From Antennarius striatus (taxonomy: Eukaryota; Chordata; Actinopteri; Lophiiformes; Antennariidae): DNA of 64,000 nucleotides. Numbering within the stretch: the first letter of the stretch is position 1; the number at the start of each line of letters is the position of its first letter. The notes beneath the pieces are model-generated. The model was not told the DNA's origin. It worked only from the letters and a program-made list of their open reading frames with translations, and did no database searches. Shown piece after piece: positions 35,901 to 38,900 of the stretch. The DNA lies in assembly GCF_040054535.1 (NCBI RefSeq), contig NC_090784.1, positions 8,020,501-8,084,500 on the forward strand. The letters run 5' to 3'. The position numbers were made by a program, and so were the translations under genes.

Positions 35901-38900
35901 CGACTGAAACATCATCCAAGCTATGCCCTTGGAAATGGAACACCAATGTATCTTGGACACACATTGACTCTGTGCTGTCGGTGTCTCTCACAGCACAGGT
36001 ATACCTGTTGGCAGTAAAATATTTGATCCAGAGTGGGGTTTTTTGTTCCAAAAATGACTGCACCACGTCCTCTATACTAGAGCACAGTAACTGAGTTAAT
36101 TAAACCCATTTTCCTCCATGTTGTTTCTCCACCACATCATATATAAATCCTCATACTAGACACAAACCGTCTTTATTACACCTTCTTGATGCTGATCAAA
36201 GTCTGATCTGCGGGGGTTTGGGTGGTGGTGGTGGTGGTAGTGGGGAGGAATAATGTTTTTGATAAGGTTGTAAACACATGATTAAAATGAATAAAACCTC
36301 TGACCACAGCTCTCATCCAATGAGAACTGAGTAGAAACTTTTTTTAAAATTCTTCCTGCATGGTATGTTAACATGGCTTTGGTTACGCTACCAGAAACGG
36401 AGTATCAATTAGATACAACAGTCATTTGCTATTTTGTTTTTTCTTTGGCCTTATTCTTTTAAGTCAGTAGAACACTTCACTGTAAAGATTAACATATCAA
36501 TATCAAATCATTAATTTAGAATATTGGGAAAGGTGTTGGTATTGTAGACTGAAGCCTACAGCTAACACAGATGTGTGAGGATCACCTGATGTGAAATGAA
36601 ACTACTGTTTGAAATAGGTAAACCCTCATAATACCACTGTGGCCCGACCTTTCTGGATTCATTTATCAGCCTGATCCTATTGGGTGCAGGGATACAACTA
36701 TTAGAACACTGAGTCACCTCCCTTCCAGCCATGATGTACTGATTTGCTTTCATGCCAAATGAACAATGGACAGCTTCTAGAGTGGCGACAGCCTACATCA
36801 GACTTTCAAACTGGTTCCAGTGCTGTCCTGCTAAATACGGCTCACCTGTCGACCACCTTCTCCTTCTCAAACAAGCAGAAAAATAATCAGAGGAATGTTA
36901 TGAAAAGTCTCTATTTAGCTCTTTGTGCTTCTTTAACTTCTAACTTAATCTCAGTAACGTTGAATTTTTCTCCTGTCCTGTCCTATCTTATTTTAGGATG
37001 TTCATCAGCTCTCAGCTGGAGGTGTCATGTAAAATTAGTGGGTGCAAAAAAAAAACATTTCCTGATTGTGATGTTTCACAATAAAGCCCAGTGGATGGTC
37101 ACTGATAAATGAGTGTCCAGCAACCTCAGCATTGAACTGGGGCACTGCATCTTATCAATATAAGATAAGAGTGTTAAAATTATGGATAGTCTCAGAAAAT
37201 CTTAGTTTAGTGCATTTTTTCTATAAAATATGTGAAATTCATACGAGCATCCTTCTGCTCCCGCCAACAGAGATCTCTGGTCTGAGCTCAGGGTGCCAGC
37301 AGGGTGGCTGTCTGACCTGCTCAGACTACAATGGCTGTCTGTCCTGCAAGCCGCGATTCTTCATGCATTTGGAGAGGATAGGGATGAAGCAAATCGGGGT
37401 TTGTATGACTTCCTGTCCTCCGGGCTTTTACGGCACACGCTCCCCGGAAAGAAACACCTGCACAAGTAAGACTGTGTTTTTTTTAGAGTAGATGGATAAC
37501 AGACTACTAATGAAATATGAAAGTATTTCCTCCATTGCATGCTCTCAATTTACAAGTCTGTAGGTGTGGCTTAGTAGCAAGACCTCTGTTAGTAATGTCC
37601 TCTGATTCATTCTAATTCTCTGTCATAACAAAGACACAGAACTGTATCTCAGACCTGAGGTAAATGTGACCTCTTAATGGTGTGTTTTACTTATGCATGA
37701 CAAGAACAAGAAGTCTCTACAAGACATTGGTAAATATGTCCTCCCTTCCTATACCGATGAGGACAGCCATGAGACCTGCGTTTGAAATATGGCATTATGC
37801 GTAAACATAGCATGAACTCAAATGACTGAAAGAACTGAACTTGTCAAGTGTGCTTCCTTTTGGAGATTTTAAAGTAAATCAAGTGGTAGTTTACTCAAAA
37901 TCATTAATCACAAATTACTCTGTGAGAAATCTGTCTGACTGCTGTGGCGTTTATTCTTGATTGAACTCCCACTGAGACACACACATGCGCGCAAACACAC
38001 ACACACACACACACACACACACACACACACTGTGACAACTTGTATATTTAACACGCAGGGGACATACTCGATAACTTTCACATTTTAAATAAACGCTGGC
38101 GGTGGGCTGTGCTTCTCTGTCAGAGTGCAGGTCGGAGTGTGACTCCTGCTTCAACAAGAACTTCTGCACACGCTGCCGAGCAGGGTTCTACCTTCATCTG
38201 GGCAAGTGCCAGGAGAATTGCCCCGAGGGGCTGGTCCGCAGTGACACACAGAGGGAGTGTGTTCCCAGTGAGTGTCTTGAGTTCACATTTACCCAGGACA
38301 AAGATAAATGTGGTAGCTTAGCCTTAATTTAATTCTATGCCACTTATTCAAATAATTCCCTCTTTGGAATGAAGCTGTCATGTAAAACTTGTGCAGGTGT
38401 TAAATTTAGCCACTGTGTTCACAGATACATAACTGTGCCTGTGACTTTGCAGAGTGCCCTGCAGAGTGTGAGTCGTGTCTGAACAGTGAGACGTGTACGC
38501 GGTGCTGGCCCGGCCTGTACCAGCTCAGCGGGAGGTGCCACCATGTCTGTCCAGAGGACTACGAGCCCAATGACAAACTCATGGAGTGCACATCACAAGG
38601 TCAGGAAAGTGAGAATAAACTGACAAGATCTTTTTAGTTCTCTTGGAATTTAAGTCTGAAACTCTTAGAATCTCTGGATTTTCTATAGGTTATTTATACA
38701 TTTATACAAGAAATAGAATACAAAGGAATACAGTATTTTCTGCACTATAAGGCGCACTGGACTACAAAGCGCACCTTCAATAAATGGCCTATTTTAAAAC
38801 CTTTTCACATATAAGGCACACTGGATTATAAGGCGCATCTGATCATAAGGGGCACCTTCAATGAATGGCTTATTTTAAAACCGTTTCCATATATAAGGTG

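Follow-up and report, generated by a model that had tools for sequence, protein, structure and literature searches.

R-spondins set Wnt sensitivity, and the spacing of their domains could matter for bridging ZNRF3/RNF43, LGR receptors and heparan sulfate. A 64,000-nucleotide stretch of the Antennarius striatus genome (contig C9, 8020501-8084500; hereafter the window) carries an rspo3 gene in which an additional cysteine-rich exon stands between the second furin-like repeat (FU2) and the thrombospondin repeat (TSR). What is this exon, is it a regular part of the message, and what would the unit that it encodes do? An earlier note on this DNA had read it as a third furin-like repeat (FU3) and asked whether fishes were already known to have it. 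Its description of an extra FU2-like, phase 1-1 exon devoid of a receptor-binding Phe pair stands, and the answer to its question is yes: FU3 has been published in several fishes from 2012 onwards.

Here, we show that exon 4 is a real, already known and ordinary feature of ray-finned fishes. It is very probably their FU3, a tandem duplicate of the FU2 exon that lost the Phe pair, is normally included and acts as a probable spacer or accessory unit. We also describe a second rspo3-like gene with FU3 elsewhere in the same genome, which bears on whether this repeat was gained once or several times.

The rspo3 gene in the window

In the window, rspo3 is complete as a coding model: six exons on the + strand join in one open frame of 327 aa. 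Exon 1 (coding part 32882..32981) supplies the start codon, which lines up with the first residue of an R-spondin-2 chain in the PDB, and a signal peptide, judged from its hydrophobic start only; the phase of its donor (AAC/gtgagt) fits exon 2. Splice sites and an open frame define exon 2 (37271..37465), encoding FU1, and exon 3 (38124..38267), encoding FU2 with its Phe pair in the motif CFNKNFC, and the Pfam family PF15913 spans both repeats (residues 46-144 of the protein). FU3 follows on exon 4 (38453..38599). The TSR lies on exon 5 (39129..39314), identified by splice sites, open frame and PF19028, whose 40.1 bits fall marginally below the cut-off of 41. Exon 6 (46500..46711; acceptor ttgcag/GACGC) stays open in frame to the stop codon and encodes an Arg/Lys-rich C-terminus. 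The model thus has the architecture of R-spondin 3, with signal peptide, FU1, FU2, TSR and basic tail each on one exon.

The neighbourhood of the gene agrees with this identity. Domain matches identify a gene with RING and WWE domains (51024-52241) and, at 54600-55037, an exon for an enoyl-CoA hydratase; we take them to be rnf146 and echdc1. These are also the neighbours of human rspo3, and both are present in the window.

Several other features share the region. Between rspo3 and rnf146, the − strand carries an uninterrupted and apparently intronless frame (48873-50087) for a complete 337-aa mitochondrial-type malate dehydrogenase (Ldh_1_N, Ldh_1_C). Of five candidates scored in the genome, only the frame itself reached E ≤0.001, so this could be an old retrogene that has taken the place of a parent gene with introns. 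No literature on mdh2 in this connection appeared among the matches listed. Intron 5 of rspo3 contains three long dinucleotide arrays (GT, AC and CT, at least 60 copies each) at 39985-40583, tandem repeats in the window amount to 13 rows at a score of at least 150, and Rfam gave no match within the window.

Exon 4 resembles the FU2 exon

Exon 4 is bounded by the acceptor ...gactttgcag/AGTGCC at 38453 and the donor CACAAG/gtcagg after 38599, which agrees with the donor consensus at 7 of 9 positions (8, 7, 7 and 6 for exons 1, 2, 3 and 5), and it is flanked by the exons for FU2 and TSR. By themselves, an open frame and splice sites are unconvincing. In a rough count over the window, open AG..GT stretches of 120-177 nt in the phase of exon 4 numbered 298 (+ strand) and 239 (− strand); at least eight cysteines occurred in 59 and 57 of these, respectively. 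The case for exon 4 therefore rests on its homology to FU2.

This homology is clear. An ungapped alignment of FU3 with FU2 spans 46 residues, 21 of them identical, at a local BLOSUM62 score of 122, and none of 2000 shuffles of FU3 scored as high (mean 27.5, sd 5.3, maximum 53). FU3 is closer to FU2 than to FU1, against which it scored 37, a value reached by 64 of 2000 shuffles. The 49 residues of exon 4 match PF15913 with 38 bits (cut-off 28) at profile positions 56-102 of 102, which correspond to the second repeat. FU3 is Cys-complete relative to FU2, and the FU2 motif CFNKNFC reads CLNSETC in FU3, both Phe being replaced, by Leu and Thr. A search of the genome (548 Mb in 42 contigs) found a single DNA copy of exon 4. 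The earlier description of this exon was exact in its borders, its 147 nt, its phase 1-1 and its good splice sites, as well as in the FU peptides that it quoted, and the likeness to FU2 and the absence of the two Phe that it claimed are both borne out by these comparisons.

Structural prediction for the 48 residues read from exon 4 gave a mean pLDDT of 91.9 with AlphaFold, four of five models scoring at least 88 and one 48.6. FU2 was the sole other row of the underlying alignment, so that the prediction is not independent of this repeat and may lean on it. In a Foldseek comparison with the PDB, the best 33 of the 50 listed matches were all RSPO chains, headed by Fu1-Fu2 of Xenopus RSPO2 (TMq 0.89, rmsd 0.9), and all seven matches at E ≤0.001, out of 321, were to Xenopus RSPO2.

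Inclusion of exon 4 in the mRNA

Leaving out exon 4 keeps the frame open and shortens the protein from 327 to 278 aa. The suggestion that the exon can be included or skipped without frame loss is therefore correct, as a property of the frame only. A regulated cassette exon producing two isoforms would be compatible with 147 nt in phase 1-1, but exons 2, 3, 4 and 5 (195, 144, 147 and 186 nt) each have a length divisible by three and share one phase, so that skippability is no evidence of alternative splicing. Moreover, published fish cDNAs are reported with the third FU: full-length medaka and zebrafish cDNAs obtained by RACE (PMC3542121, PMC4053527) and a tongue sole clone (PMC6073468). These cDNAs demonstrate inclusion, although not its invariability. 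The word "isoform" is absent from the tongue sole paper (PMC6073468), and none of the matches listed in a literature search concerned rspo3 isoforms or exon skipping by title. We consider a cassette with two isoforms very unlikely; exon 4 would normally be part of the mRNA.

A second rspo3-rnf146 pair

Searches of the same genome with FU2 and FU3 returned 10 and 8 matches, respectively, at E up to 1, including, besides the window gene, an rspo2-like gene (C9:5916148), an rspo1-like gene (C9:19594371) and a gene on contig C19; the remaining matches, on C3, C14 and C15, were weak (E ≥0.0058). The C19 gene is rspo3-like (L004:691-2205, equal to C19:11431097-11432611), and its five exons (L004 691-775, 1049-1240, 1499-1639, 1751-1897 and 2006-2205) encode 254 aa comprising FU1, FU2, FU3 and TSR. 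Its FU3 exon has 147 nt in phase 1-1, directly follows FU2 and is likewise without the Phe pair, carrying Val and Met. This FU3 matches PF15913 with 29.5 bits (cut-off 28), and the TSR scores 22.1 bits against a Pfam cut-off of 41. Aligned with the window rspo3, the C19 protein is compact, has no basic tail and misses two TSR cysteines. For rspo1 and rspo2, we looked between FU2 and TSR for + strand open stretches of more than 25 aa with at least four Cys and found no FU3: there was none in one locus (L021), and the other (L020) had one stretch that is not FU-like.

About 2 kb downstream of the C19 gene, an uninterrupted frame (L022:6601-7818) encodes a second RNF146, identical to that of the window at 200 of 332 aligned residues (61%). 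A genome search for rnf146 gave two matches, the window copy and the C19 copy. Because an rspo3-like gene and rnf146 are paired there too, we interpret the C19 locus as a second copy of the rspo3-rnf146 block, which, from the roughly 30 kb of C19 that was read, would most simply derive from the teleost genome duplication. An assignment of the C19 gene to rspo4 or another paralog was provisionally rejected on account of the second rnf146 alongside and the good alignment of FU1 and FU2 with those of the window gene. A literature search for "rspo3b" found nothing related. Also on C19, the − strand has an open stretch of 306 residues (L024:786-1703), which we take to resemble a SOGA/MTCL-type protein and which, if so, extends the paralogous block.

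One gain of FU3 or two

Did the two genes inherit one FU3, or did each acquire its own by a separate duplication of FU2? Neither pairwise scores nor a tree of eight FU rows gives sequence proof of one lineage. The two FU3s share 14 identical residues, against 21 between window FU3 and window FU2 and 17 between C19 FU3 and window FU2. In the tree, C19 FU3 groups weakly with C19 FU2 (72/76), and both FU3s sit on very long branches. These values speak for separate duplications, and a 2025 survey of 430 animals leaves "independent amplification" of FU3 possible (PMC12111769). However, no branch of the tree is well supported, and the two exons agree in length, phase, placement directly after FU2 and lack of both Phe. 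FU3 is also reported from gar, whose lineage diverged ahead of the teleost duplication (PMC4053527, PMC12111769). We therefore regard separate duplications as unlikely.

Position instead favours a single gain of FU3 before the copies split over independent amplification. The arguments are the matching location and phase of the two exons, their equal length, the absence of the Phe pair from each FU3 and the published gar FU3. A more far-reaching proposal, which we advance tentatively and consider somewhat less than even, is that a single gain of FU3 preceded the teleost genome duplication and that both copies, beside paralogous rnf146 genes, have kept it for about 300 million years as a non-LGR module. 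The C19 copy would then have shed its basic tail and one cysteine pair of the TSR, to become a compact R-spondin with a different receptor/heparan balance.

Proposed role of FU3

Residues F106 and F110 of RSPO1 are needed for LGR4 engagement (PMC12111769). Their counterparts in window FU2 are the two Phe of CFNKNFC. FU3 lost the Phe pair, in the window copy to Leu and Thr, which makes a second LGR site unlikely; from its residues, FU3 most likely does not bind LGR receptors. We propose that the FU2 exon was duplicated in tandem to give exon 4, and that the duplicate would have kept the disulfide-ladder fold of FU2 while losing the Phe pair that clamps LGR4/5/6. FU3 would then insert a further rod-like segment between the part that binds receptors, FU1-FU2, and the heparan-binding TSR and basic tail, where it would set the distance between head and tail or offer an accessory contact. 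We lean towards such a spacer or accessory function between the FU1-FU2 head and the TSR and basic tail.

It is also conceivable, if doubtful, that FU3 binds a separate partner or alters the handling of ZNRF3/RNF43 rather than serving as a spacer. A Cys-complete repeat with an FU2-like predicted fold would suit such a function, as would the tongue sole assay in zebrafish embryos, in which the drop in boz was no longer significant with FU3-deleted mRNA (PMC6073468). In the same study, the effect of the FU3 deletion on sp5l was not significantly different from that of the wild type (PMC6073468). Human RSPO3, which has no FU3, had an effect in zebrafish embryos similar to that of the zebrafish protein (PMC4053527); FU3 is therefore unneeded for that effect, which speaks against a dedicated partner and against any large role of FU3 there. 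The C19 FU3 is also very different, and with 14 residues identical to window FU3, a divergence this wide leaves no shared binding surface evident. The sp5l and human RSPO3 results weigh against a spacer or accessory function as well, as do teleosts that keep two FU domains. This function remains our preferred reading, and a natural three-FU R-spondin is a ready test of spacing, though one already recognised.

Comparison with known R-spondins

FU3 was described in 2012 as an extra furin-like domain in exon 4 of medaka Rspo3 (PMC3542121). In 2014 it was reported for zebrafish, medaka, fugu, stickleback and gar and not for elephant shark, with only one rspo3 in those teleost genomes (PMC4053527). 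A 2018 tongue sole study of RSPO3 from 35 species found FU3 nearer to FU2 and tested domain deletions in zebrafish embryos (PMC6073468). A literature search on FU3 in R-spondins yielded these three papers. The 430-animal survey reports three FU domains in RSPO3 of some Actinopteri, finds that certain Actinopteri carry RSPO3 in two or three copies and states that several teleosts retain two FU domains (PMC12111769), from which it follows that FU3 is dispensable in some. For elephant shark and tetrapods, the published work reports two FU domains. The earlier note would have given up its reading had the exon been well documented across jawed vertebrates; such documentation covers ray-finned fishes, but not elephant shark or tetrapods.

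Window FU3 shares its predicted fold and its cysteine pattern with FU2 of RSPO1 and RSPO2 (PDB 4bso, 4c8v, 9kb7). It differs from them in being without the Phe pair, and its first Cys loop is one residue shorter, as in rspo3 FU2. As here, the Rspo3 of ray-finned fishes has six coding exons, with FU3 in exon 4 between FU2 and TSP1 (PMC3542121, PMC4053527, PMC6073468), and its FU3 is more like FU2 than FU1. We found no difference in kind from the window gene; only species and sequence differ. The multiple RSPO3 copies of Actinopteri (PMC12111769) likewise have a counterpart here in two rspo3-type genes, both with FU3. The text of that survey makes no mention of synteny or RNF146, whereas in A. 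striatus the second copy adjoins a second rnf146. A further FU3-bearing copy in a syntenic position is thus a modest addition to the published picture.
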